From assembly GCF_030704535.1 (NCBI RefSeq), contig NC_081821.1, positions 1,255,001 to 1,319,000 of the forward strand: DNA of 64,000 nucleotides, written 5' to 3'. This document shows positions 13,977-40,360 of the stretch, piece by piece; positions within the stretch are counted from its first letter, which is position 1, and each line of letters starts with the position of its first letter. This DNA is from Vitis vinifera. Its lineage: Eukaryota > Streptophyta > Magnoliopsida > Vitales > Vitaceae. A program made the translations under genes and the position numbers. The notes beneath the pieces were generated by a model. The model worked only from the letters and a program-made list of their open reading frames with translations. It had not been told where the DNA came from and ran no database searches.

Positions 13977-15260
13977 CTAGTCTAATTCAGCAGTCCTTAC
14001 GCTCTCTTCCTCCTCTGAAACTGTAATCACCTCAAGAAGCTCCAATGGCGTAGCCGCCGGGTCCAGCTCCCGGCAACCCTTGGGAGCATTTTCAGCTTCT
14101 CGGCCAGTAAGCACGACAGACGGCACCTGATGAGAGAATCGAAACAGCTCCTCTCTAGGAATCATCCTCACGGCGTTGGGGTCCAGGTGGCGATGAAACA
14201 CCGCCTTAAACCCCGAAACCTTCACCAACGGAATGACCGCCACCCCTCCATGACGATGATCCCACTCATAATCTTCCATAATCACTTCCACCACATCGTA
14301 TTTCTGAATCACTTCATCTGGGGTGAGCTCGTTCCAGTCTGGCGACCAGTTCCGGTAAACAGCCCAAACCTCCCCCTTTCTCGGGTATATTCGAATGGCT
14401 CCTCCCCCCACTTTTGTCCACTTGACCCTGTGTGAGAAAGAAATCAGAGAGTCGTAATCCACAAGCCTTCCCACCTGGAAATCCCCACTGGTTTTCATAA
14501 ATCCGGAGCAAACCCAGTTGACTGACGTCATTTCAGTGCTTCGGCTCTTAGTATTCAGCCAACTGATACGAATTCTGAAGGGTTCCAATGATTCCACGCT
14601 ATGAACGATAGCGTAACAGCGGGGCATCCCGTCGCCATTGTCGTAAGCAGCCCAAACTTGGTTTTCGCGGAAGCACTTCTCCGTCCGATGCTTGTCGAAA
14701 TCATGAATATCCGGCTCTGTAACGCTCATCGTCATGGCATAAAACCTTTTCCCGATCCTCCCATGGCCTAAAGCCATTGAAACAGTAGCTGTATCAGTGT
14801 AGTCCGAGCAGCCTGCGGCCCATTCTCTCATCTTCTTCGATATTTCTCTCCGAGACTTCTGCACAAGAATATTTCGAGCCTGAATCTCCGATAACTCCCT
14901 TGCAGAAAAGGAATCACAACAACCCATTTGAAATCGAGAAGGACCCATCTCCCATCTTCGCTCTGTATCCGATTTATGATCATGTACACGCTTTCTCTTC
15001 GTTCTCCCGGCTCTGGATACAGGAGAGGAGGGCGGTGACTCAAGTGCAACAAAAGCTTGACGGCAATGGACGCATATGAGGGTGTGTTTGAGGAATGTTT
15101 TGAGGTACTCATACTCCATCTTGCAGCCACTACACATCGCCCAAAACGTATCAGACCTTGACGGAAGAGGCCGGGATAGCGAAGCATGCGCAGGCCTCTG
15201 ATCGTCCTCTACCTTACTCATGAAGCCACCATGAACACAATCCGATCGCTTCTCAGGCAT
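13977..15260 (-). CDS. DUF3444 protein lacking a J-domain (tandem paralogue)
   Basis: Single-exon frame; the first true ATG is at 15260 (MPEKRSDCVH), giving 427 residues. It aligns collinearly with the J-protein at 19980-22640 but starts after that protein's J-domain and Asn/Thr/Gly repeats. The CxxC...CxxC zinc-ribbon-like segment (FWAMCSGCKMEYEYL, cysteines near 43, 46, 63 and 66) is retained. The roughly 300-residue central linker is cut to about 70, and DUF3444 (about residues 180-415, with TEPDIHDFDKHRTE, NQVWAAYD, RNWSPDW and FRFSHQVP) is whole. The frame is open and conserved, so it may be functional, but without a J-domain it cannot stimulate Hsp70. It could act as a decoy or be a decaying duplicate; expression is unknown. 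Function of DUF3444 itself is not established. Confidence 0.8.
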   Translation of the reverse strand: MPEKRSDCVHGGFMSKVEDDQRPAHASLSRPLPSRSDTFWAMCSGCKMEYEYLKTFLKHTLICVHCRQAFVALESPPSSPVSRAGRTKRKRVHDHKSDTERRWEMGPSRFQMGCCDSFSARELSEIQARNILVQKSRREISKKMREWAAGCSDYTDTATVSMALGHGRIGKRFYAMTMSVTEPDIHDFDKHRTEKCFRENQVWAAYDNGDGMPRCYAIVHSVESLEPFRIRISWLNTKSRSTEMTSVNWVCSGFMKTSGDFQVGRLVDYDSLISFSHRVKWTKVGGGAIRIYPRKGEVWAVYRNWSPDWNELTPDEVIQKYDVVEVIMEDYEWDHRHGGVAVIPLVKVSGFKAVFHRHLDPNAVRMIPREELFRFSHQVPSVVLTGREAENAPKGCRELDPAATPLELLEVITVSEEEESVRTAELD

Positions 15261-18200
15261 ATTGGAAGGCACCTCCAATGGCGGAAATTAACCCTAATTC
15301 ATCAACAGAATAAGAAGAATGAAAACAAATACTTAGTATATTTCTATAAAATCTCAATAAAATCCATTGAGATTTGGTTTTATACTAATAAAATTTTTTA
15401 TTTCTATATATTTTCGTTGGGAAAAATATTTTGAAAACCTTAACATTCCTTTTTCATTCTCCATATTCCAACTTTCAAGCTTGTCCCAAAGGCAGATGAT
15501 TGTACTTTAGAGTTTAGATCCTAAATTTAATAGGAAAATATGTGAAATATGTATTATATTTTGTATTTGTATTCTAATTATTTATATAACAAGGGATTTT
15601 GATTACAATATCTTACGTGTAAATGCAAATTTAAAATAATAAAATTTAAACCAAAATTATTGTTTCATTAATAAAGCCTTTTATTTAAAAAATAAATAAA
15701 TTCTAAATATTTATACGATGGATCACATATAAACAATTTACTATTATATTAAAACAAGACGATATTAAAATAAGAAGTTTTTCATGTCATATTCATAAGT
15801 TTTATCACTTTAAAAAAATGTAAATAAATTTAATAATCAATTTGTAAAAATATTATAAGTATTTATAACTTTTAATACTTATAATTGGGCACTTAAGTTT
15901 TCACTATTTAATTTTTAATTTTATCAAATATTAACTCCCTTATCATATACTTCAATGAATTAAAAAATAAAAATAAATAATTGCTCAAAATTTTAAATAA
16001 TTAAAGTTATGTTTGATTCCCAAAAATTTGAGAGAAAGAAAATAGAAAGGAAAGATGGAAGAAAAAAAACTATAAAGTAAAATAAAAAATAAATTCAAAG
16101 TAAATAATTTTTTTTTTATATATGTTTCTTCAATTTTATTTTACTTATTTTCCTCTATTATATAAAGATTAAATAATTTTAAAATCAATAAATTTCTAAC
16201 TAATTTTAATTTTATTTATTTATTTATTTTAATATTTATGATAGTAAAATCAAGTATGAGAAAATCATTTTTCTTAATATTTTTTTTTTTTTTAGTATTT
16301 TCCAAGAATCAATTATAGTCTAACTAAATAGCATCCAGTCAAACGTGTTCATCAACCATGGATTTATAGAAATTAAATTTTTACATGCTAAATATTCAAT
16401 AATTTTGACTAAATCTTTAGAAAACCCATCATTATTTTTAATATTTCACAATCTATGCCAAAATAATATCATAAATTATGTATTCTATATAAAGCACAAT
16501 CAAAAAGTAAATATATAGAAATTATATTTTATGCATTTTGTCATAACTTTTAAGTGATAATCTTTCTTTTTCTATTGGATTGACTTTGACTACATCAAAT
16601 CTAAGAAAATTATAACATTTTTTCCATCTATTTCACAATATATGAATTTTGAATTTAAATAATAAATATTAAATTCAAATAAGTATTAAGAGACATAAAA
16701 AAAATTACTAACTCAATTAAAAATTAAAATTGTTAGTAAAAGAAGATTTTCATTTAAGAATCAATTGGATAGTGTTTTCATTAGAATTACCTATTAAACG
16801 TTTATCCAAAAAAATATTATAACTAATTTTTTAACTTTTTAAAATTGTATTCTAAATTTTATTCATTTTTAAAAATTATTTTCTAAAAGCATTATCAAAG
16901 GACTCTAAATTATCATGGAATAAGGAATATATATTTATTTAATATTATTTTGGATGTGTTTGAAAAAAAAAAATGAGTATAAAAACATGGGAAGTGGTTA
17001 ATTTTGTTCCTTTATGTTGGATATGTAAGGGCGAATAAACACAACAAAAAATGACCCAACTTATCCTAATATTTGGATGGCCTTGGCCATGAATTAGGTT
17101 TTTTCAACTTGACCTTGACCTAGGTTAAGCTTGGGCCAAAGTTTGAACATGATTTAATGTTTTTATAATATTTATTATTCTATATAGTAATATTGATTTT
17201 CTTTTTAGATTTAAAAAATATTAAATTATATTATACATTGTATTTTTCTTTTTTTAGAAAATAAAAAAAATTATTTTTACTTTTTTTTTGCTATTTAAAA
17301 TTTTATCCTATTTACTATTTAATTTTTAATATAAATATATATAAAAAAAAAGCTTTTAAACAAACATTACATATATATTTTAAATTATGCAGGACTAACT
17401 AAGTCTAACTTAACTAATTTTAACTCAATCTATAGAAATGGGGTTAGGTTGGGTTTCAATTGAATATCTCTTACTAGAGGTTAAGTTAGGTTGAGTTAAA
17501 GTTAATTGTTTTTATATTTGAGTTGGACTTAGGTTAATTATCAATCTATCCAAAATTACAATTTTAGAAAAAATAGTAAAATTATGACTCATGTTTGGTT
17601 TATTATTTTTTATAGTGACTACATATATATTTTTTAACTTCCAAATTATTATTATTTTTAAAACTATTAAACTCATTAATAATTTCAATACAAAGTTTGT
17701 TTGATTTGAAATGCATTTCTCTAATGAAAAAAAAAAAGAGGAAAAATATGGTTTTATGCAAAGGAAAAATAATATAGTCATTTTACACAAATTTTTGTTT
17801 ATAAATTTATGATATTTATTGAGTCATTATTTGAGTTTTAAATTATTTAAAAAAATTATTAGACTCAATAACCAATTCAACTCATTTATGATTTGTTTAA
17901 TTTAAAGTTTATTCACTTAGTAAAAAAAATTATAAAATTATGATTCTATAGGGAAAATAAGAAAGTCATTAAAATGAAATTAGGTGCGTAAGTTACTATT
18001 ATTACTTTGATTGATTTTGAGTCATGACTTTATAATACTCATTGAATCGATTTTTAAGTTTTAAATTATTTTTAAAAATAAACTTTTTGTATTAATGTTG
18101 CTTGATTTGAAATCAATTTATTAAATAAAAAATTTAGAAAAGTTAAAAAAAAAATCATAAAAATACATATAATTTAAAGAAAAATCATATTTAAAGATTA

Positions 18201-19979: not shown

Positions 19980-22640
19980 TTATGTTTCCTCCACTTCTTC
20001 ATTCCCTTTTTCAGAAGCCACTGCCGTCTCTTCTTCCTTAAAATCTGTTATCACCTGAAGGAGTTCCACAGGTGTAGCTGCTGGGTCAAGCTCTAGGCAA
20101 CCCTTGGGAGCATTTTCAGCTTCTTGACCAGTGAGCAAGTACGATGGGACCTGATGAGAGAAACGAAACAGCTCTTCTCGAGGAATCATCCTGACTTTGT
20201 TTGGGTCCAAATGCTGGTGAAACACCGTCTTAAAACCAGAAACTTTAACTAGTGGCACAACGACCACTCCTTGATCCTCATTATAATCTTTGATTACTTC
20301 CACCATTTCATACTTGTGAATAACTTCATCTGGGGTAAGCTCATCCCAGTCTGGTGACCAGTTCCTATAAAGAGCCCAAACGTCTCCCTTTCTAGGATAT
20401 ATTTGGATTCTTCCCCTCACCCCTTTTGTCCACTTTACTTTGTGGGAGAAAGAATTGAGAGAGTCGTTGTCCATCTGTTTACCTATTCGAAACTCCCCAC
20501 TGGTCTTGGAAAAACCAGAAACAACCCAGTTGAGTGGAGCCAGTTCAGTGTTGCTTTTAGCATTTAGCCAACTAATGCGCAACTTGAATGGCTTCAATGA
20601 TATCACACTATGAATCATAGCATAATAACGAGGCATCCCATCATCATCATCATAAGCAGCCCAAACTTGGTTTTCACCAAATGAAAGTTCAGTACGGTCT
20701 TTGTCAAAATCATGAATATCAGGATCTGGAACGCTCATCGTCATGGGTTCAGTTTCGTTTTCATCAGCATCAGTAGGAAGGGTAGCAGACAATGTCTTGG
20801 GCCGGATTCTGTTAATGGTATCTGCAGACTCACTAGACTTGCTGGCATTACTTTTTCTACCACTCACCGTAGCTTTTGGCTTCTCTTTCTCTTTCTCTTT
20901 CTCCTGCTCCTCTTGAACCGAAGCCTTTGATTCAGCAGCTGAACTCCATTCACTCAGCTTCTTAACAAGTTCTCTCCTTGCCTTCTCCATAAGCATATTT
21001 CGGATTTCGAGCTGTGATGGCTCTCTTCTAATATCAAGCCTAGTACTTCTAGAAGCATTGATCCTCCCCATTTCAGAATTACAATTTTGAAAACCAGGTA
21101 GATTCCCGATCCCAGCTCCTCCATTTTCCATTCTCATTTGATTTGTTCCCTGACTTCTACTGTCATTTGGACTAAATTCATTTATGCGCCTTCTTTTAAC
21201 AGGGCTCTCTCCTTTGAATACAGAACTGGAACCAATATTAGAAGCTCCAGTAGCTAACCCACCACTTTTCTTAGAAACAGTAGTTTTCCTCGGAAGAGTC
21301 GGCTCTTTCATGGCTGTTGTTTTTGCCTCCTTATGTTCTCTCTCCAATTTCTCATATGTTGGCTGAAACCCATGAGTAGATTGAGCACATGAAGAAGCTG
21401 AAGCTGTAGTCCTGACACTGTCTGATTTAGAGTATGATCCTGATGCATTATTTGCAGCATTATTTGCATGGTTAAATGAGGCGACACCTGAAGAACATGC
21501 TGGTTCTGCATTTGGAGTAGAAGCAGGATCCTTTCCAGAGGAAACTGTGTTCTCCTTTGTTGTATGTAGACCTGTCTGCTGATTTGAACTCTGTTTCTGT
21601 TGGTAGGCAGTCCATGGAGTGTATGAGCCATGAGTGTAGGCAGGTGGGGGTGGTGTCTCAAAGGCAAGAAAAGGCTCATGGCAATTGGGGCAAAGAAGTG
21701 TATGGTTCAGATAAGTTCTAAGGTACTCATATTGCATTCTGCAGAGAGAACACAATGTCCAAAATGTATTAGGTTTTGATGAACTAGGAGGAGGCCGTGC
21801 AGGCTTGGGATTAGTGGTACGCTTATCATCCTTTGCCCTGTGGACACCATTATTACCAGCTGGTGCTGATTGATTCATCATTGTATTGTCACTGCTGGTA
21901 AAATTGTGTGCACCACTATTACTGACTGGTGCTGATCGATTCCTGTTGGTATTGTTACTTCTGGTAAAATTATGACCACCATTGTTACCAGTTGGTGGTG
22001 CTGATTGATTCCTGGTTGTATTGTTACTGGTAAAATTATGAGCACCATTGTTACTAGTCCGAGATGCTGATTGATTCCTAGTTGTATTGTTACTGCTGGT
22101 AAAACCACGACCACCATTGTTACCAGTTTGTGGTGCTGATCGATTCCTGGCTGTATTGTTACTACTGGTAAAACTATGACCACCATTGTTACCAGTTGCT
22201 GGTGCTGGCCGACTCCCACTAGGGACTTTCAGGTTTGCACCCCTTGGATTGCGCTTCAAATCATATGCAGTTCTCTTGGCTTTATCAGACAACAAACTCC
22301 AGGCTTCAGACAGAATTTTAAATGCCCCATCTGCCACTTCCAACTTGTTTTTGTCAGGGTGGAGAACTAGAGCCAGTTTCCTGTAATGCTTCCTTATGGT
22401 GTCATCATCAGCTGAGGGATCCACACCAAGAACTCCATACCAGTCAACTTCCCCGTTAACTTTTCTCTCAGAAGCAACATAGACATCAATGGTTGCAAGC
22501 AGCTGAGGAAGACCATCCAGCCCAGGATACAAGTTTTGGGCTTTCATAGCAAACTTTCTTGCTCCAGCCATGTCCTTTTCTGTCATCTTCCTCTCAGAAA
22601 TTCCTTTAGCCCTGATTGCCTCATCTTTATTACACTCCAT
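19980..22640 (-). CDS. J-domain (DnaJ class C) protein with DUF3444
   Basis: Single coding exon from ATG 22640 (MECNKDEAIR), 886 residues. The N-terminus has the usual MTEKDMAGARKFAMKAQ helix. A J-domain at about 66-129 has the catalytic HPD at about 94-96 (ALVLHPDKNK) and should stimulate Hsp70 ATPase. Residues about 148-268 are five imperfect copies of a 20-22-residue Asn/Thr/Ser/Gly repeat. A CxxC...CxxC segment follows (FWTLCSLCRMQYEYL, cysteines near 297, 300, 317 and 320), then a long Ser/Lys-rich linker with a KEKEKEKEK tract. DUF3444 lies at about 640-855 with PDPDIHDFDKDRTE, NQVWAAYD, RNWSPDW and FRFSHQVP. This is the plant family typified by Arabidopsis At2g25560/At5g53150; cellular role and client proteins are unknown. 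Length and domain order are normal. Confidence 0.92.
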   Translation of the reverse strand: MECNKDEAIRAKGISERKMTEKDMAGARKFAMKAQNLYPGLDGLPQLLATIDVYVASERKVNGEVDWYGVLGVDPSADDDTIRKHYRKLALVLHPDKNKLEVADGAFKILSEAWSLLSDKAKRTAYDLKRNPRGANLKVPSGSRPAPATGNNGGHSFTSSNNTARNRSAPQTGNNGGRGFTSSNNTTRNQSASRTSNNGAHNFTSNNTTRNQSAPPTGNNGGHNFTRSNNTNRNRSAPVSNSGAHNFTSSDNTMMNQSAPAGNNGVHRAKDDKRTTNPKPARPPPSSSKPNTFWTLCSLCRMQYEYLRTYLNHTLLCPNCHEPFLAFETPPPPAYTHGSYTPWTAYQQKQSSNQQTGLHTTKENTVSSGKDPASTPNAEPACSSGVASFNHANNAANNASGSYSKSDSVRTTASASSCAQSTHGFQPTYEKLEREHKEAKTTAMKEPTLPRKTTVSKKSGGLATGASNIGSSSVFKGESPVKRRRINEFSPNDSRSQGTNQMRMENGGAGIGNLPGFQNCNSEMGRINASRSTRLDIRREPSQLEIRNMLMEKARRELVKKLSEWSSAAESKASVQEEQEKEKEKEKPKATVSGRKSNASKSSESADTINRIRPKTLSATLPTDADENETEPMTMSVPDPDIHDFDKDRTELSFGENQVWAAYDDDDGMPRYYAMIHSVISLKPFKLRISWLNAKSNTELAPLNWVVSGFSKTSGEFRIGKQMDNDSLNSFSHKVKWTKGVRGRIQIYPRKGDVWALYRNWSPDWDELTPDEVIHKYEMVEVIKDYNEDQGVVVVPLVKVSGFKTVFHQHLDPNKVRMIPREELFRFSHQVPSYLLTGQEAENAPKGCLELDPAATPVELLQVITDFKEEETAVASEKGNEEVEET
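21837..22199 (-). repeat. In-frame coding repeat, five units of about 60-66 bp
   Basis: Each unit encodes a variant of N(N/S)G(G/A)H(N/S)FTSSNNT followed by RNQSAP. The array is in frame between the J-domain and the zinc-ribbon-like segment and is absent from the truncated paralogue. Units differ at several codons, and unit lengths vary by whole codons, as expected for slippage under frame constraint. Confidence 0.85.
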
Positions 22641-24952
22641 CCTCACAAATTTTGTCCCTCTCTGTTACTCACTGCTCTATTATTCCCTTCTTTACTTCCC
22701 TCTCTGTAACTATGGGTCAAACACGGTATCATGAAGGAAGGAACTAGGGTTGCGCAAGCACTGGTACACCAGAAGTAATTCACAAAGATCAAATAAAGCT
22801 GTGTGATTAGCATCAGTCAACAATATTAAGAGTAAGAAAAACCATAAGAAACTCAAAACCAATAATTGAATGCTACTACCAATTCATTAACTCTGGATAA
22901 ACCGAAAAGCATAATAATGAGTGCCTACTGCTAACACAGCTAAATCTGAAAACCTCACTAATAATTGAAACAAAACCCACATAAGTAATCATAAAATGCC
23001 CATGAAATTAATTGCAAAAAAAGCGCGCAAAAGGAATTTGAAAGAACTTCAAAAATTGCAGGACAGAATTGAGACAAGGGAGTGAAATGGGACACCATTC
23101 TGATGCCATCTACATTACTTGCATACCAGTCACAATGAACAGGGAACAAGGAACAAACCAACGGTTTGGTGATAACACAAAAGGCTCAGCAATCTGTTTG
23201 GCTGCTGAGAAAATGTAGGAAAAGCGATGAAGCTTGAGGACATAAAAATAGGTTGGGTTTGAGACGGCTGTTGCCCTCTTTCCTTTTCCTTTCATTTCTC
23301 AGTAACCAAAGGGACCTTAACTCTCTTCAATATTTTTTTAAAATATCTCATTGGTCAAATACTTGAAACGAACTGAACCAACCCACAAGCAAAAACCGTA
23401 AAGAAACATTGAAGAACACTGAAATTATAGACACCCATTAATTAAATTGACCAAAAAACACCAAATCAGACATGCCCATCAACCATGGATCTACAGAGGC
23501 TGAAACTTCACATGCAAAGTGTCCAAATTCAGTAGTTTTGCTAAAACCCTAGAATGGCATTATTATTTCCAGTAAACAATCTATGGCAAAGCAGTTACAA
23601 AAATCATATTCTTCCATACAAAGCACAACCGAAAACCACATATATATAAACATAAATGCACAAAAGATACGAAAAAATTTACCTATTACCAGAATGTGAA
23701 CCGCAGAAACCCAATTGAAAATTTCTGGGAATTTTGAATTTTGCCCTTTCTTTACCAACCCAGATCAGATAAAAAAAGCCCCAAATAGGGATTTTTTGAA
23801 AATCCTTCAAAACCTACCCAGACAATTTTCCCAAAGAAAATAAAAGTGAAATTTAAATACATAAAATGGTAATGGTTTTCTGTACTTAGATTATTATTTA
23901 GCCATTAAACAAACCATTTTATATTGGGTTAAAACCCTAACTAGGGTTAAATTTTAACTCTGGTTAACATGAATTGGTATTGCCAGTTGTTGCAATTTTC
24001 ATTTTAATTTGAGTGTACACTTCCTTAAAAAGCAATCATTAATTATTTACATTTTTTTAATATTTTCCATTTTAGTTAAAAATTAAATCATTATAGTACA
24101 AGGGTTAATTTCACTTTTACACTTATGGTTTATTATAAATACATTAAATCACGATTGGTATTAAATTTCATCTATCAATATCTTTATTGATATATTTCAT
24201 TTATAATTTTTTTAAAAAAATAAATTTATTTTGTAAATTATATTAAAAGTTTTTTTTAAAAAAAGGAAGATATATTTGATAATTAGAAAATAAAACAATT
24301 TTTTTTCTTAAAAACTATTAATTAAGTTATTTTTAGAGAACAATTTTAAATTGTTTTTATTTTTTTGAAGATTATTTTTAAAAATAATTATATAAATATG
24401 AAAAATGATTAAAAATAAAGGATAAAAGTCATTTAAAAATATAAAAATATATGTTAAAAATATTTTAAATTCTTAAATAAACTTTTATTTTATAAAATAT
24501 CATATAATAATTTTAAAAAACTGTTTTCAAAACCTATTTTTTAAATTGTTTTTGAATACTTCGAGGTAGTGTTTGGTTAGTAAGAACAGGAACGGAAACA
24601 GGACACTAATCATCAAAGGAAGTAAAGACAGAAAGAAAAGAAAAATAGAATTTGTTTCATTATTTTCCATATATAAGTCAAGTTGCAAATCAATATTACA
24701 ATACCATGACCATGCTCATCTTCTCCAGATGGCTGAACTGAACGCTTTGATAAAAAAAGGGACCAAAAAAAGAAGGAAAATCTATATTTTTAGGACATTG
24801 AAACTAAAGAATTTAATAGCCAAAAGAATGGAGGTCACTGCAATGAAGCTACATTCAAGGAAGAAGCCATTTATGGCTTCAATTTGAATTGAACCACCTT
24901 GTCTTTAGCCCTGCTTCCGAAGATGACGGAACTATGAAAATCATATAATTGC
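22641..24952. other. J-protein gene upstream region and convergent spacer
   Basis: 22,641 to about 23,830 is moderately AT-rich and likely holds the 5' leader of the J-protein gene, possibly with a leader intron; its 23465-23660 part has a diverged copy at 16337-16530. The stretch about 24,000-24,570 is extremely AT-rich and resembles degraded family A MITE sequence (runs such as ctgttttcaaaacc near 24,520). About 24,600-24,952 probably contains the 3' UTR of the MFS gene. No additional gene is supported. Confidence 0.45.
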
Positions 24953-31725: not shown

Positions 31726-33426
31726 CTCTATTAGGCATGAGACCAATTGTAAATCATGGTGAGACATAATTAGGTTAACAGGTTTTTAGTTTATCTAGAA
31801 TCATATAAGACAGAGTTATTCAAAAATCTAAGTAGGCATTAAAAAATAAAGAAAATCAATCAAAGCTTTGTAGTTAATATTCTTCAACTTTTAGTTTTCT
31901 TTTCATCGTTTTGTAGATTTTTAATTGTTTTGTAGATATGGTAGGTCTTTGAGGATTTAGAGTTTTAGGAAGAACGAGGAAATAAAAGAAGGAGAGTTTA
32001 CTTCTATTTTGGTGATTTAATTTACAAATTTATCTTTATTTATTAAATCATGCGCACAACACATGACATTTTCGTCCATTTGAACTAATATAACAAAAAA
32101 GGCATAGTATTGGTGTTTAATAAGCTGAGAGGGCAATTTGTTCGATTTTAAATCTAATGGGGTAATGTACAAAACACATCATAGGTTGAGGAAGTAAAGT
32201 GTATTAAACTCTAAAACTTAATAAACGTTGTTGTACTTGTTTGACTAATTTTGTCAAAAGACCTTATAATTAAGAAAATAAATTTTGAAAATAGTTTTTA
32301 AAAATGATTTTATGATGTTTTGTAAAACAATCATATGTTTGAAAACCTAAAATGTTTTTAATCTGTTTTTAATATTTTTAAATATATTTTAATGATAATT
32401 TTTATGTTAGTGTTTTATTTTTAATCATTCTATATATTTATATAATTATGTTTTAAAACAACCCTAAAAAAATAAGTTAAAATAAAAAATAAAAAATAAA
32501 AACAATTAAAAAAATATTCCCTAAAAATACCATATTTTATGTTTTTTAAGAACAAAAAATAGAAAATGGTTTTTAATCATGTGTTTTCCTATTTTTTTTG
32601 TTCTCGAAAATAGAAAAAATCTTAAAATAAATATTGCCTCTTATACAAGCTCGAACTTATAACTAAAAAGGAGTTTTAAGTCAAGAAAATACTACTTATC
32701 ATAGCTCTTTTGTTATGATACGTCTAATAAAAATTTTAGAATACTAATATTGTATTTTGAAAATTATGACATGGATTCCAACCACTAGTGAAAGCCAAAA
32801 ACAGAAAGCTATCTTGTGTGGATCATGATGTTGCAGCTACTTGATTGGAAGTGGTACCTACCTAGCTTCTAGAAATTGAAGAAACTACAAATAAAAAACA
32901 AACCTACTATTTATGGTGAAATAAAACAAATAAAGACATGAAGGTTTGAAGTAGACATGATTTGAAGGCCAAAATATCTGTAAAATTCCATGGGCCAATC
33001 CTCTAATCAACAACAAAAGGTAAGCTGAAAGCTAATTAACTCATCACTCATCCCATCAAAAATCAGATCGGTTTTCATTTCAAACCTACCTACACCCATA
33101 TTGGGAATCTACAACAACACTGATGATCTCATCTAGGTTGAAAAGAATGACAAAACTAAGAGGCAAAACACTTACTAATACTACTAACAGACACTTCTCT
33201 AAATTCTCTTCATTGGTTTGCAGGTATTGGTTTCATCACACAATGTGGATCATGCTTTCAACATACACATCAGTGAAAATCTAAGCATTCCTACTTCAGC
33301 CATGCCATGTGACATGTTAAGAGCATCGAGACTTTCACGAGAGCATGTCAGCGATCTATATGAGTTCACCAATTGTTTAATGTATCACGCCAAAGGAAGC
33401 TACAATGTAATCAATATATATATATA
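31726..33426. other. AT-rich intergenic DNA
   Basis: No supported gene. About 32,260-32,640 looks like a degraded family A MITE (tttgaaaatagtttttaaaa at one side, gttctcgaaaatagaaaa at the other). A 69-codon open frame at 33218-33427 follows an AG acceptor-like site and has coding-like composition, but I do not recognise it. Confidence 0.4.
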
Positions 33427-33435
33427 AACATTTAA
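33427..33435. repeat. Target site duplication, left copy
   Basis: AACATTTAA, identical to 39205-39213. A 9-bp duplication is the size made by Mutator-type transposases. Confidence 0.9.
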
Positions 33436-34145
33436 GGGAAAAATGCTCATACACCCCTTAAACTTTTAACTACCGGTCAAAAGACCCCCTTAACTTTTTT
33501 ATTGGCCAATTTACTCCTTAAACTATTCATAACTACCAAATTAATACTTCAATTAGTCACACGTTAAAACACTAACGGAATAAACACATGCCACTCACGT
33601 GGCTTTTAAATACAAACTGAAAAACACCCAAACATCCAAAACCCAATGGAAGAGAAGAGAACCAGTCCAGGTCCGGCAGAGAGAGAGAGAGAGAGAGAGA
33701 GACTGCACGCCGTTCATAGCCACTGCCAAGCTTCTCTCCGCCGTCTCGCCGCCCTTGTCTCGACGGCTCCTTGGTGGTTCCGCCGCACTGTTCAATCTGG
33801 GTATGTTTTTTTTTTTTTTTTTCTTCTTACGTCTTGCTATTTAAATTTTCAAAGAACTTTTATTTTTTTTTTAATCTCCATGTGCGAATTTTTATTGTAG
33901 AAATTCTTGTTTTGGTTTAATTTCTGGGTTGGGTCTCTATGAAATTCTTGGTTTTTTACTTTCTCCATGTGTCTTTCACCAACTGTTGCATTTGAGTATG
34001 CCATAGAGCTGTTTGATTAAATGCCTGAGAGAGATATGGCTACTGCTAAGGGGGTTTGGTTGCTTGGTTATCCAATTTTCCAAATATGCTGGCCTTCTAA
34101 GTTTCCCTTGCAACCCATTTGCAACAAAAACATATCAAACACGAA
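33436..34145 (+). repeat. MULE left terminal inverted repeat
   Basis: Reverse complement of about 38496-39204. The AT-rich outer half is followed by a GC-rich, exon-like stretch at about 33,650-33,800 with a GA repeat (33,680-33,702) and a GTATGT donor-like site at 33,801, then intron-like T-rich sequence. Similarity ends near atatcaaacac at 34,135-34,142. Confidence 0.88.
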
Positions 34146-34242
34146 TTATTATTTCTTCCCATTTGCACTTCAATTATTATTTCTTAATTTTCTCCTTCTT
34201 CATGTAGAAATCAACCCTAAATATTTCCCTTATTTGTTTCAG

Positions 34243-34375
34243 CAAATCAGATAATGTAATTTACAAGCTCAAAAAGATGGGAAAGATTGGGGAGAAAGAT
34301 ATATTGCTGATCTGCGATTACTTCAGTAAGCTTGATCGCAACAACTTTGGGAAGATAACACTACCAGATCTTTAG
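34243..34375 (+). pseudogene. Captured exon fragment of a two-pore K+ channel (TPK/KCO) gene
   Basis: After an intron-like tract ending tatttgtttcag, the sequence reads in frame as KSDNVIYKLKKMGKIGEKDI, then LLICDYFSKLDRNNFGKITLPDL and a stop, 44 codons in all. YKLKxMGKIxEKDI followed by a D-x-N-x-G-x-I EF-hand loop is the C-terminal calcium-binding tail of plant TPK channels (recalled family sequence, not searched). No pore or membrane segments are present, so it is only the last exon plus part of the preceding intron and possibly the 3' UTR. It sits between the element's left inverted repeat and its transposase, i.e. Pack-MULE-type cargo. The open strand points away from the left end, so the inverted repeat's promoter could transcribe it. 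Confidence 0.7.
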
Positions 34376-35183
34376 GAACCTTGTGACTGCAAGAATTATG
34401 AAATCTGTTTCTATTCTTTAGATGGAAGAAATGTATAGTTACATTTTTTTTCTTCTTCCATTGATACTTGTAAAGGTTTCAAGTCATATAGGAGCAATGA
34501 AAAATAGAAGCCAATGGGATATGTCCCCCTTCTGTTATAGGTTCTCTTACAGCCATTAAATTGAGAGGCTGCTATGGAGGGTTTGAGTTGTGTGATGTAG
34601 ATTTGACACTGTAATAATTCAAGTAGTCAACAAGGAAAGCAAACAATCTTGGGATGATCTTACTTCTTCTCTTTATTTTGATTCAAGTTGTATGAGTGAT
34701 TTGGTTGATGCGTACTTCTTCTCTTTATGCAATAACCACTAAAAATGAATGTGTCCCAATCTGCCATGAATTGAACTTTATGCAATAACTCTAAGAAAAT
34801 AAATCAATAATTACACTTTTCCGGCAATATTGAAAAACAAAAGTATACTGGCTCCATCAGTATTCTTAAAAGGATCTCAATATGCCATGAATTGAAATAT
34901 CAAATAAGTATTCACAAATGGTATATTGTTTGCCAAAAAAATAACACTCAATGAATCAATAATTACACTTTCCAAGCAATATTGAAAAACAAAAGTATAT
35001 TGGCTCCATCAATATTTTTAGAAGGCTGTGTATCACTAAACAAATTATTGAACTAAAAAATTATTTATCTTCTTGCTGCCACTAAACCTTAGCCTTTCCC
35101 TTATCCTTCTTGCTTCCACTAGTGTTGTCTTTTGTACGACTTTGACTTGACTGTTAAGTACCTATATTTGATTGCTGAGTACC

Positions 35184-37571
35184 TTATAAAAAGCCAAAAA
35201 ATTTGAAAAAGTTTAACAAAGTAGTACTTGAAATTTGGATGAAAAGTTCAACAAAGTAGTACTTGAAATTTACCAATAATTTTTTACTCCCTTTAGCTCC
35301 AGATGTAGATGATTGTTCTAATTGCCCTTTCTTTTTCTTTTTATAAGCCTTCTTGTTGGGGTTATCAGGAGCTTTACAAGTTCTTTGATTATGGCCCCAC
35401 CGGAAACAATTCCCACATTTCATGGCAGTTCCTTTCTTGCTCACCCTAAATGCATTAATAGGTTCTCCTGCCTCCCTCTTTCTTACCTTCTTATGCTTGC
35501 CTACTTTCTTTGTAAATTTTGGGGGCTTGATTAGGTCATAGGGTGTTTTTGGCCATTGTTCATGGCTTGGAAGTGGGCTTATCATCCATTGGTAACAACT
35601 TAAGAATGTCTCCTTAGTGTAAGCAATGTCTACATAAGTCTCAAGTTGCTCTCCATGCTCAATTATTGCAGCAGCAGCATGAAAACATGGGATTCCACTC
35701 AATCCCCATCTCCCACAACCACAAGTCCTCTCATTCAAGTCCACCACATATCTTCCACCATAAATATACTCCACCTCATATTTGGACTCTCCATTCCAAC
35801 GAGAAATGCAATGTCCAACCTCGTTTTTTATCCTCTCAAGCTTCTTATAGATTCTTGGACAAACCCTCCCTTCATACCTTCTCATATGATCTCTTTTGGT
35901 TTGCAACCTTTGCATCAACATCACTCTTATGATCTCTATCGTTGTCAACACTGGTTTATCCCTAGCCTCCAAAATCCAAGCATTGAAAGACTCTGCTATA
36001 TTGTTTACTAGAGTGTCACTCTTGCTTCTTGGATTAAAAGCATGTCTGCTCCATGTTCTCACATCTAACTTCACAAGCCACTCATATGCCTTCACATCTA
36101 GCTTCTTCAACTCATCCATGTGGAAGTCAAAAGAATGCTTTGTTGTTGCCCTAGCAGCACTCCACATTGCATCTTTGAGTACCTTCCCAGGAAAATCCTT
36201 CTTGAAATTTGCATGTAAATGCCTAACACAAAATCTGTGCTCTGCATTAGGCATCAAATCTTTAAAGGTCTCTACTAATCCCTGCCATAAAAAATACGCA
36301 AATATACATTAGTTATTCATATTCAGGTTATAGATCATGATATTTTTAAAAAATAAATAAATAATTCACATGCACATTAATTGTTTCTTGCCTTCTGTCG
36401 GTCTGAGATAAAGACCCATCCATTCTCATCCACATGTCCAATGTCATCCAACAAGAATTGTAGAAACCAAGTCCAAGAGCTTTTATTCTCAATTTCAACG
36501 ATAGCAAAAGCGATTGGGAAGATATTATCATTCCCATCCTTTCCAACAGCAACCAGCAACTGTCCACCTGTTGTCCCCTTCAAATGACAACCATCTATCC
36601 TAATAAGTGGCCTATAACTTGCTAAAAATCCCCTTTTGCAAGCATCAAGACAAATATACATTCTCTCAAACACATCATTCGTAGTTTGTATCTTCACTGT
36701 GCTACCCACATTCCACTTCCTAATAGCAGCTGCATAGTCCCAAAGTCTCTCATACTGCTTCTCCTCAACACCATGTATCATCTTGAATGCCATTCTCTTA
36801 GCCTTATAACATTGGTCCAAAGTCACATCAACTTCATGGTCCTTAAACACTGCACCTTTCAATGCATTTGTTGTCCAAGTATGATCATCTCTAAAGAATG
36901 GCAAATATTTATTGGCTAGCCACCTTGAAGAAATCTTACTATTCTTATGATCCTTGCCACACGTATGAATGCTTTTAAAACTTTTGATTTGAAAGGCATC
37001 TCCCATTTGTGTTTGGGATGCATGTATCTTCCAACCACATTTTTTTTTTACATACAGCTATCACTCTCCACTTATCATTGTGCTTATACTCAAAATCATG
37101 TTTTTCTTTAATACACCACTCCTTTAGTGCCTCCTTGAAGATGACATGTGATGCAAATTTTTTATCCTTCACTAGCTGTACATTCTCCATGCCAATGCGC
37201 TAGTTAAACTCAGGGAACCTAGGCCTTGAATTCCCTTCATCATCAGATGACCCTTCTGCACTCCTTAACTCATCACTATCCCCATGATCTGAATCTCCTT
37301 CACCATTCCAAACTCCCTCAAGCTGCTTGCCTCCAATTGCTCTATTGATTCCATCATCCTCCATACCAAAATCTTCAATTATATGATCATCATATTCAGA
37401 AAAATCACTCAAATTGTAATCTTCGTCATCCTCGTCATCCTCCACATCAATTGGAACATTAACAATTTCAGATTGGCCATCAGCCTCAATAAAATCATAT
37501 TGGGATTGAGGGGCTTGTACATTTGGCATAGAAGGTGAATTTCCAGGGAGTGACAGTGGACTTTCATCCAT
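35184..37571 (-). pseudogene. MULE transposase (MuDR family), nearly intact
   Basis: The reading starts at ATG 37571 with an acidic N-terminus. A MuDR DNA-binding region follows (DKKFASHVIFKEALKEW, KWRVIAVCKKKCGWKIHAS), then the MULE catalytic domain (RPLIRIDGCHLKGTTGGQLL, NIFPIAFAIVEIENKSSWTW, VFISDRQKGLVETF). A SWIM finger (CGCGRWGLSGIPCFHA) and a CCHC knuckle (CGNCFRWGHNQRTC) complete it. One intron (36282-36391, 110 bp) has a GC donor and rejoins DRQK/GLVETF in frame. Two lesions are visible: an in-frame TAG at 37200-37202 between acidic and DNA-binding parts, and a run of ten A where nine keep frame (near 37,040, minus strand). The rest is open for about 600 codons. The C-terminal end after SGAKGSKK may be further spliced. 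Confidence 0.88.
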
Positions 37572-38495
37572 GGCTACAATACAAAATTAACAAGAACATT
37601 AATAGAAGAGCTGGAGAAAACATAATTAAACAAAAAAAAAAACAATATAGAGAATAGTGAGAAAAAAAAATATAACAATTTGCTCATGCACATGTGCATG
37701 ATTGCTGCTAGTTCAATTCACATAATTCAAAATATTACAACATGCTAGCTTAGTCAGTAGACCATATGGCTGGAATCATTACACCGAGACCCAGTATCTT
37801 TAACACTAACCAAAAGCCATATCTTTAACAGTAAACTATATATTACATATTAATATTACTTAGCTGCACCCAGCATCTTTAGGGGAAAAAAAAAAAAGAT
37901 GCACCTAGCAACAGTAGAAAAATGTAAAAATTAATAATATTCTTTTGAATGGATCCATATTCCAAAGTATTTAGAAACCTTAAATCAGTTGAGTTACAAA
38001 GACATTCGGCGATCAAATTCCCTTTATCCTAACTAATGAATTAACATAAAAAATAAACTTATTTGGATCAAACGAGATAAAATCTTTAGTGACTTAATGC
38101 AAATTTTGAAACTATGCTTATGATTTTTCAGTATCAACTGCTTCGTCATTGCAAATGTTGCATAAGATGGTTGTTAAGACATTAAGATCGTAAGGCTTAC
38201 TTACAAAGTGACCTTGCCTGAACATATGGAAAAACTACATTATCTTCTCATAATAAAAAAGAAAAGTGCTACACTAATTCTATAGTGTAATTAGACATGG
38301 CAAGTTTGGACCAAACTGGAACACACTAAAAATACCAAGGGATTCATAAACAGGATTTTGGATGTTCATGATCAATCCTTATGTAGCTCTGCATTATTTC
38401 TTGGATGGATACAAGGCATATTTGCAAGTGACAAAATTAATGAAATTTCTCTAATTGAAGATTTAGTTATTGGCTTCTGGATCATTACAGAACCA
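37572..38495. other. MULE interior, 5' side of transposase
   Basis: Likely leader and promoter-proximal region of the transposase transcript between its ATG and the right inverted repeat. AT-rich; no captured gene fragment recognised. Confidence 0.5.
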
Positions 38496-39204
38496 ATTAT
38501 TGTGTTTGATATTTTTTTGTAGCAAATGGGTTGCAAGGGAAACTTGGAAGGCCAACATATTTGGAAAATTGGATAACCAAGCAACCAAACCCCCTTAGCA
38601 GTAGCCATATCTCTCTCAGGCATTTAATCAAACAGCTCTATGGCATCCTCAAATGCAACAGTTAGTGAAAGGCACATGGAGAAAGTAAAAAACCAAGAAT
38701 TTCATAGAGACCCAACCCAGAAATTAAACCAAAACAAGAATTTCTACAATAAAAATTCGCACATGGAGATTAAAAAAAAATAAAAGTTCTTAGAAGATTT
38801 AAATGGCAAGACGTAAGAAGAAGAAAAAAAAAAAAAAAAAAAGACATACCCAGATTGAACAGTGCGGCAGAACCACCAAGGCGCTGCCGGGACAAGGGCG
38901 GCGAGACGGCGAAGAAAAGCTTGGCAGTGGCTATGAACGGCGTGCAGTCTCTCTCTCTCTCTCTCGGACCTGGACTGGTTCTCTTCTCTTCCGTTGGGTT
39001 TTGGATGTTTGGGTTTTTTTTAGTTTGCATTTAAAAGCCACGTGAGTGGCATGTGTTTATTCCGTTAGTATTTTAACGTGTGACTAACTGAAGTATTAAT
39101 TTGGCAGTTGTGAATAGTTTAAGGAGTAAATTGGTCAATAAAAAAGTTAAGGGGGTCTTTTGACCAATAGTTAAAAGTTTAAGGGGTGTATGGGCATTTT
39201 TCCT
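38496..39204 (-). repeat. MULE right terminal inverted repeat
   Basis: Mirror of 33436-34145, including the GC-rich exon-like stretch (about 38,855-38,995), the GA repeat (shorter here) and the donor-like site. It faces the transposase, so it is the likely transposase promoter. Confidence 0.88.
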
Positions 39205-39213
39205 AACATTTAA
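39205..39213. repeat. Target site duplication, right copy
   Basis: AACATTTAA, identical to 33427-33435. Confidence 0.9.
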
Positions 39214-40360
39214 TGTGGTTTCGCCAACCATGCATACATTAAATAAAATAAATAGATGCAACTATTAAGTCTAGAAACATCTCTTGTTTCTCTACCTTCA
39301 CATTTTTTTATATATACACCCTGAACTACAAGTATCTACTCTTACGGATGTCTCCCATTTTTCTTCACATCTTTACCTACTCATATAATCTTTACAAACT
39401 CAACTTAGTCTCATAATTTTTTCTGCCGTGATATAAATTTGTCAACATACTCCCAACAACTTTCCTTAATATTTTATGCCAAATAAAAATATGAGAGAGA
39501 TTTGATCATGTTCTTCCTCTAGCATCACGAGCAGAACACTGCACTCAATTCTTCAACTTGCACATGAACAAACAGTCCCCACAACAAATTGGATATGAAT
39601 ATAAAATATTAGGTCTCAGACCAAGGTTTCTCAAATAGATGTGAGCGGGTCCAAACTCAGGACCACCCTTCTACTCAAGCTGATCACAGCAGGGAAGATG
39701 AATATCCAATTTTATTTTCCCCCTTTTATAATAAGAAAATGGAGCACAAGAGGAATTAGTTTCTTTGCATGCGTTGACTTCTTCTATAATGACAGACCAA
39801 CAACAGGGGCAGCAACTTCTATTTGCTTGGAAAATGTGGGGAAGACCAAGAAAAACACCTTTTCTACTTAATCTACTAATCTAGCATTGTGTTGAAATCA
39901 AAAGTTGTGATGACATGTAAGGTTAATATAATCACAGTTGCTTGTGATCCTAGGTTTGATATTTCAAACGCCCAACCAAGATGTTTCAATGTATGATTCG
40001 TTTTAAAGAATTGGTGTTTTGATAATTTCATCAATCATTTTCACTAAGTTCTTAAAATCCATAGGTCAAACAAGTAATTGGTTTTGATAGGTTTGTTTTC
40101 TCCCCTCCTATCCTGCTGCAATATGACCAACAAGAAATGGTTTTATAGAGCATGTTATCATCCAGAAACAGCTGAAGCAATAAGTGTAAGAAAAAAGAAA
40201 CCAAGAATTTGGACACATGGATGAACATTCAATACCATCCTTTTTTCTCTGCCATCAGATTCTTGATTATTAAGAATTAAAGAACATGATAATGAATAAT
40301 CATATCCGAAATTTAAGGTAAGTAATAATATATTTGTACAGGCAACATGAAATAACTAAT
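39214..40360. other. Intergenic DNA
   Basis: No supported gene. The stretch nearest 40,360 is probably the 3' UTR of the thylakoid lumen protein gene. Confidence 0.45.

Follow-up and report, generated by a model that had tools for sequence, protein, structure and literature searches.

The window, by which we mean the whole analysed stretch of 64,000 nucleotides of Vitis vinifera DNA (C17:1255001-1319000), contains a complete MULE of 5.77 kb that carries, besides transposase sequence, the captured last exon of a two-pore potassium channel (TPK) gene. The element is recognizable as a MULE by its transposase domain, by long terminal inverted repeats (TIRs) in all seven genome copies and by 9-bp target-site duplications (TSDs). 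Its parts lie as follows.

33436..39204, no strand assigned: complete MULE, 5.77 kb, the C17 copy and one of seven in the genome
33427..33435, no strand assigned: left TSD, AACATTTAA, identical to the right one at 9 of 9 bases
39205..39213, no strand assigned: right TSD, AACATTTAA
33436..34156, plus strand: left TIR, starting GGGAAAAATGC
38489..39204, minus strand: right TIR
33646..33800, plus strand: stretch of the left TIR with an ATG, which a splice from GT at 33801 to AG at 34242 would join in frame to the exon below (95 residues)
34241..34242, plus strand: splice acceptor AG of the captured exon, present in 7 of 7 copies, at the same site as in host TPK genes
34243..34375, plus strand: last coding exon captured from a TPK gene of the C7 type; its closing TAG stands at the place of a Leu codon (TTG) in C7
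34376..34395, plus strand: possible extension of the cargo exon as far as the stop region of the donor, weak
34798..34873, plus strand: first copy of a 76-bp direct repeat, 89.5% identical to 34950-35025
34950..35025, plus strand: second copy of the 76-bp direct repeat, inside the element
35187..36281, minus strand: transposase second exon, SWIM zinc finger (PF04434, E 3e-7)
36282..36391, minus strand: transposase intron, inferred to be GC-AG, with a seeming GC donor (AAG/GCAAGA) and an AG acceptor
36392..37571, minus strand: transposase first exon, MULE domain (PF10551, E 1.2e-12), interrupted by a stop (TAG, 37200-37202) and a frame shift around 37040-37049
37574..38488, no strand assigned: region upstream of the transposase (leader), whose matches are restricted to the seven copies

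The two TIRs, about 715 bp long, are 92.8% identical over 727 aligned columns, and the element termini read GGGAAAAATGC and GCATTTTTCC(C/T). An Rfam scan of 33300-39400 returned no match at the gathering cut-off. An earlier note on this DNA had placed the plus-strand exon between the left TIR and the minus-strand transposase, which is indeed the arrangement found. The same note had called the MULE autonomous, a description that does not hold: the transposase of the window copy is broken by the in-frame TAG and by the one-base shift, which falls in a poly-A run, and by our reading of the frames the transposase is open to its last stop in none of the seven copies. In a single copy the first exon is open, and the second exon of that copy is interrupted by a stop in its C-terminal tail. 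Though disrupted, transposase sequence is kept in all seven copies. No relatives of this transposase were confirmed in viral and prokaryote contig collections, as expected of an element of the plant kind.

Searches of the host genome (495.6 Mb in 21 contigs) with the TIR, the cargo, the leader and the transposase, in which match counts are lower bounds, located at least seven copies of the element, on C17 (the window), C15, C18, C8 (two), C11 and C3, and no intermediate-age, partial or older ones. The TIR gave at least 16 matches, all within these seven elements, and the leader at least seven, at 97-100% identity; among the 150 of 631 transposase candidates that were scored, seven reached at least 95% and the next best 41%. 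Where they were aligned with the window element, the six other copies show about 97-98% identity to it, and the 601-bp stretch with the cargo (34100-34700) is 99-100% identical across all seven. The tip branches measure 0.009 neutral substitutions per site, equivalent to about 1.7 million years if the neutral rate is 5.4e-9 per site per year.

Every copy is flanked by a target duplication, perfect in three copies (9 of 9 bases) and with one mismatch in the other four (8 of 9). In three of these four (C15, C11 and C8:11.65M), the mismatched base is the one touching the left TIR, and the change is always a transition; methylation spreading out of the element could be its cause. The right TIR of the C15 copy consists of two pieces. 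In the C3 copy, an insert of about 3.1 kb (C3:4898497-4901635) splits the left TIR, and the flanking TIR pieces overlap by five bases, as expected from a 5-bp target duplication.

The captured frame reads SKSDNVIYKLKKMGKIGEKDILLICDYFSKLDRNNFGKITLPDL and then stops, its coding part ending at 34372 and the TAG occupying 34373-34375, so the 44-codon open stretch behind an AG acceptor that had been described is present. Its length alone is uninformative, since a six-frame scan of the window yields 497 stop-to-stop stretches of at least 44 codons, and the evidence therefore lies in similarity. The 44 residues match eight terminal exons in the host genome, on C7, C12 (two), C10 (two) and C19 (three), one extra match that is not a TPK (E 0.7) being excluded from this number. 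Identity to the peptide is 73% for C7 (E 8.8e-14), 68% for C12 (E 1.1e-10) and 64% for C10 (E 1.7e-10), and the exon begins at the same point and in the same phase as the host TPK terminal exons. A search with the pore exon found eight places in the genome, matching the eight terminal-exon loci, whereas no pore exon was found within any of the seven elements; in both the C7 and the C12 gene, the upstream (pore) exon contains two Ion_trans_2 stretches. Judged by this likeness, positions 34243-34375 are the terminal coding exon of a TPK gene. The claim that a MULE with a transposase had also captured a TPK exon is thus upheld, the start of the cargo coinciding with the host intron-exon boundary. 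Among the host loci, C12:799204-806752 combines a pore exon with a terminal exon (C12:806672) that is a partial match and contains a TAG, and is a probable decayed TPK gene.

The EF-hand loop that had been reported for the cargo survives as a resemblance, but not as a scored domain. Against the Pfam EF-hand profile the captured exon reaches 16.1 bits and the C7 exon 19.7, both below the cut-off of 25, and the loop serine of C7 is replaced at codon 36 by Phe in six copies and by Leu in one. The KK of YKLKKMGKI is confined to the window copy; six of the seven copies have KE, as do the TPK genes. The stretch is short, and its top matches among solved structures are weak EF-hand matches in calcium-dependent protein kinases (best E 0.075), as might befit a chance likeness or a general EF-hand. 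The host TPK exons, however, match far better within a single genome and have the same exon start, and the probability of such an origin is practically negligible. Downstream of the TAG, similarity is weak and mixed (P 0.032 against C7, 0.47 against C12 and 0.0005 against C10), and may extend to where the donor had its own stop.

C7 (C7:5378290-5381005) is the nearest of the eight host TPK loci found. The cargo has the same terminal exon start and phase as this gene and is 79% identical to it at the DNA level across the 138 bp between acceptor and stop region, whereas the match is confined to the exon and neither the intron nor the 3' flank can be aligned. The earlier note had looked to a match spanning the intron-exon boundary as proof of DNA-level capture and as the means of naming the donor; instead, the closest TPK match ends at the exon edge, and the intron side is at chance against C7, C12 and C10, 108 of 200 shuffles reaching the C7 score. 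For the 3' flank as a whole, the score against C7 is 31, one above the highest of 200 shuffles (30), and the 60 bp that follow the exon give a better score with C10 than with C7, so that a trace of a C7-like flank may remain. No closer donor was found among the eight pore exons and eight terminal exons in the genome.

Between cargo and C7, 16 of 25.7 synonymous sites and 12 of 106.3 nonsynonymous sites differ (dS about 1.3, dN 0.12), and 18 of the 28 differences are transitions, of which 11 have C or G in C7 and T or A in the cargo. Placing the cargo as sister to C7 is about 8 lnL units better than placing it with C10 or C12. In a small purpose-built codon model, omega on the cargo stem is 0.14, with a value of 1 disfavoured (LRT 10.3). 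When the model was extended to include the C19 genes, decay by neutral change alone was 5.5 lnL worse, and the best estimate of the neutral phase on the cargo side was 0, rising to about 0.1 at the 1.9-lnL limit. A single-rate clock with a constrained and a neutral phase is just 1.9 lnL worse, which leaves branch lengths loose; on the cargo side, the divergence from C7 amounts to about 0.3-0.56 neutral substitutions per site, compared with 0.31 and 0.66 for the tip branches of C10 and C12, which are old paralogs. These donor inferences rest on 44 codons, with about 26 synonymous sites near saturation. The codon-model results imply that the sequence acquired most of its divergence as a working gene, one that was not found in the genome.

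C7 is the closest host gene, and the simplest account would be a direct capture from present-day C7 followed by fast neutral decay. Neutral decay from C7 itself, however, is 5.9 lnL worse in the extended model, the excess of synonymous differences has a binomial P of 0.007, and at residues 19 and 21, which are Asn and Val in C7, the cargo has the Lys and Ile of C10 and C12. At such a divergence, moreover, the flanks should still be alignable: when C7 flanks were simulated with 0.22 substitutions per site, the intron was found again in 99 of 100 trials and the 3' flank in all 100, against 2 of 100 and 14 of 100 at 0.5 substitutions per site. We therefore regard direct capture from C7 as highly improbable.

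Within the family, nine codons of the exon vary among the seven copies, seven of them by nonsynonymous and two by synonymous changes, and each change occurs in one copy. The resulting omega of 1.04 gives no sign of purifying selection on the exon; under an omega of 0.19, seven or more nonsynonymous changes in nine would arise with a probability of 0.042. One copy, on C3, has lost the stop codon. At the level of these sequence comparisons the cargo exon looks neutral within the family, and most likely it does nothing as a protein and is an inert passenger.

A conserved chimeric gene, with a first exon from the TIR spliced to the TPK exon, was considered and rejected. Six copies could be compared, that on C3 being left out for its interrupted TIR, and the start ATG is present in the window copy alone, ACG standing in the others; the frame is kept in three of the six, its loss being due to variation in the length of an AG run. 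Across the seven copies, none of the 100 columns immediately before the acceptor (34143-34242) varies. We do not rely on this as a sign of extra constraint, as the segment is A+T-rich and free of CpG, and several segments were compared.

An old capture that the MULE kept as a useful coding part and lost only recently would accord with the low omega on the cargo stem, with the 95-residue chimeric frame of the window copy and with the convergent orientation of exon and transposase, which recalls the second gene of MuDR, an element described as having TIR promoters and convergent genes (PMC3310237); a parallel has also been suggested for Ulp1 domains in Vandal elements. We nevertheless consider such selected cargo improbable, given the neutral omega among the copies, the sporadic chimeric start and frame and the lost stop codon. 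The exon is also more variable (10 of 133 columns) than either transposase exon (48 of 1110 and 61 of 1173).

What probably happened is that a transposase-bearing MULE acquired the final exon of a TPK gene of the C7 type, a gene not found here, and that the exon has since been decaying as a passenger. An element with a transposase would have taken up genomic DNA comprising this exon with its acceptor site. Gap repair after excision is the usual proposal for gene capture by MULEs. Since the exon is present in all seven copies, we infer a single capture before the copies separated, and the DNA with its cargo would then have spread to seven places. That the fragment might be a standard part of all family members from another source, a possibility raised in the earlier note, is borne out in its first half, the exon being common to all copies, but the fragment is TPK-derived all the same. 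As dS far above dN and similarity limited to the exon suggest, the donor itself would be a TPK gene long separated from host C7 and under protein constraint during that time; it is not among the eight loci found. Once captured, the exon would have been free to decay, consistent with its ending in TAG, its lost loop residue and its neutral-looking changes. Transposition would need nothing but TIRs and a transposase, which for the window copy would come from another copy.

Where this donor resided can be accounted for in two ways. The MULE might have been built in another eudicot, from the ortholog of C7 there, and have reached the grapevine lineage by horizontal transfer before giving rise to seven copies, a reading that we put forward tentatively and at somewhat below an even chance. 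The small neutral phase implies that the donor still worked as a gene until just before the copies dispersed, yet no such gene was found in the host genome. The distance between cargo and C7 is on the order of that between the old paralogs on C10 and C12, no relics of intermediate age were found with transposase, leader or TIR, and a published proposal has MULEs passing horizontally from plant to plant (PMC6446971). The missing donor, the missing relics and the gene-family-scale distance to C7 would all follow from a foreign origin. A single low-copy lineage, however, could likewise leave no relics, the match counts are lower bounds, and the plant comparison covered the host genome. Alternatively, a second C7-type TPK gene of the Vitis lineage may have been captured and later lost from the genome, which is possible, though we would not give it an even chance. 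This requires no transfer between species, and TPK loss is seen in this genome in the TAG-containing terminal exon at C12:806672. Neither the terminal-exon nor the pore-exon search found a remnant of such a gene, though, and its long constrained retention would have had to be followed by complete loss inside the short neutral phase. A lost local paralog fits the cargo equally well as transfer, yet needs more steps. An origin in another plant lineage, from its own C7-type TPK gene, with a recent horizontal invasion of the grapevine lineage, is offered here as a tentative proposal.

As it stands, the element is another transposon carrying a pseudo-exon, and its value is that of a tracer: the exon fits no donor in its own genome, and a lost gene and a transfer between species are the alternatives. 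A host exon carried by a transposon has its place in the tree of a gene family, so that a donor lineage can be named, which transposon sequence alone does not allow. If a foreign origin were true, captured host exons would be generally usable for naming the source species of transferred transposons.

Of all the rows in Table 4 of a 2008 survey of grapevine transposons (Benjak et al., PMC2528002), that of Mutavine-7 (MuDR-7_VV) fits the element best. Mutavine-7 is given there as 5.8 kb long with a TIR of 710 and a TSD of 9, close to the 5.77 kb, about 715 bp and 9 bp found here, the other rows that state a TIR length ranging from 70 to 441 bp. The survey lists for Mutavine-7 five copies with most of the transposase, nine deleted copies, two copies with potentially functional ORFs and no ESTs (PMC2528002). 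We found seven copies, in contrast, with no deleted ones and none fully open. The parts of PMC2528002 available to us make no mention of a TPK cargo for this family.

That a transposase and host cargo should occur together had been considered unusual, but grapevine offers precedents: MULE families with transposase and Ulp1 sequences, and a Mutator family with exon and intron sequence of a cellulose synthase, were described in the 2008 survey (PMC2528002), so the architecture is already known. Like Pack-MULEs, the present element carries a captured gene fragment including an intron-exon boundary; unlike Pack-MULEs in the strict sense, which are defined as nonautonomous MULEs (PMC3310237) and are without a transposase, it has transposase sequence in all seven copies. 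It resembles the Ulp1-bearing MULEs (KI-MULE and KIU-carrying Vandal; PMC2528002, PMC13317346) in combining transposase and captured host sequence in one family, whereas those elements carry a whole protease domain with reported conservation and the cargo here is one 44-codon exon, unconstrained among copies. A literature search found no published report of a TPK cargo in a MULE or Pack-MULE. A transposase-bearing MULE with a gene fragment is accordingly known, and the TPK cargo is new as far as found in print.

Two further observations concern the TIR and the rest of the window. The left TIR at 33985-34045, together with its inverted copy in the right TIR, can be translated as AIELFD-stop-MPERDMA, which we take to resemble a pentatricopeptide repeat, so that a second capture may lie within the TIR; the TIR search gave no genomic match outside the seven elements. 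Away from the MULE, two minus-strand ORFs at 13977-15278 and 19980-22646 have a similar C-terminal region, the larger (19980-22646) with what is presumably a J-domain-like start, and the pair looks like a duplicated gene and its partial copy.
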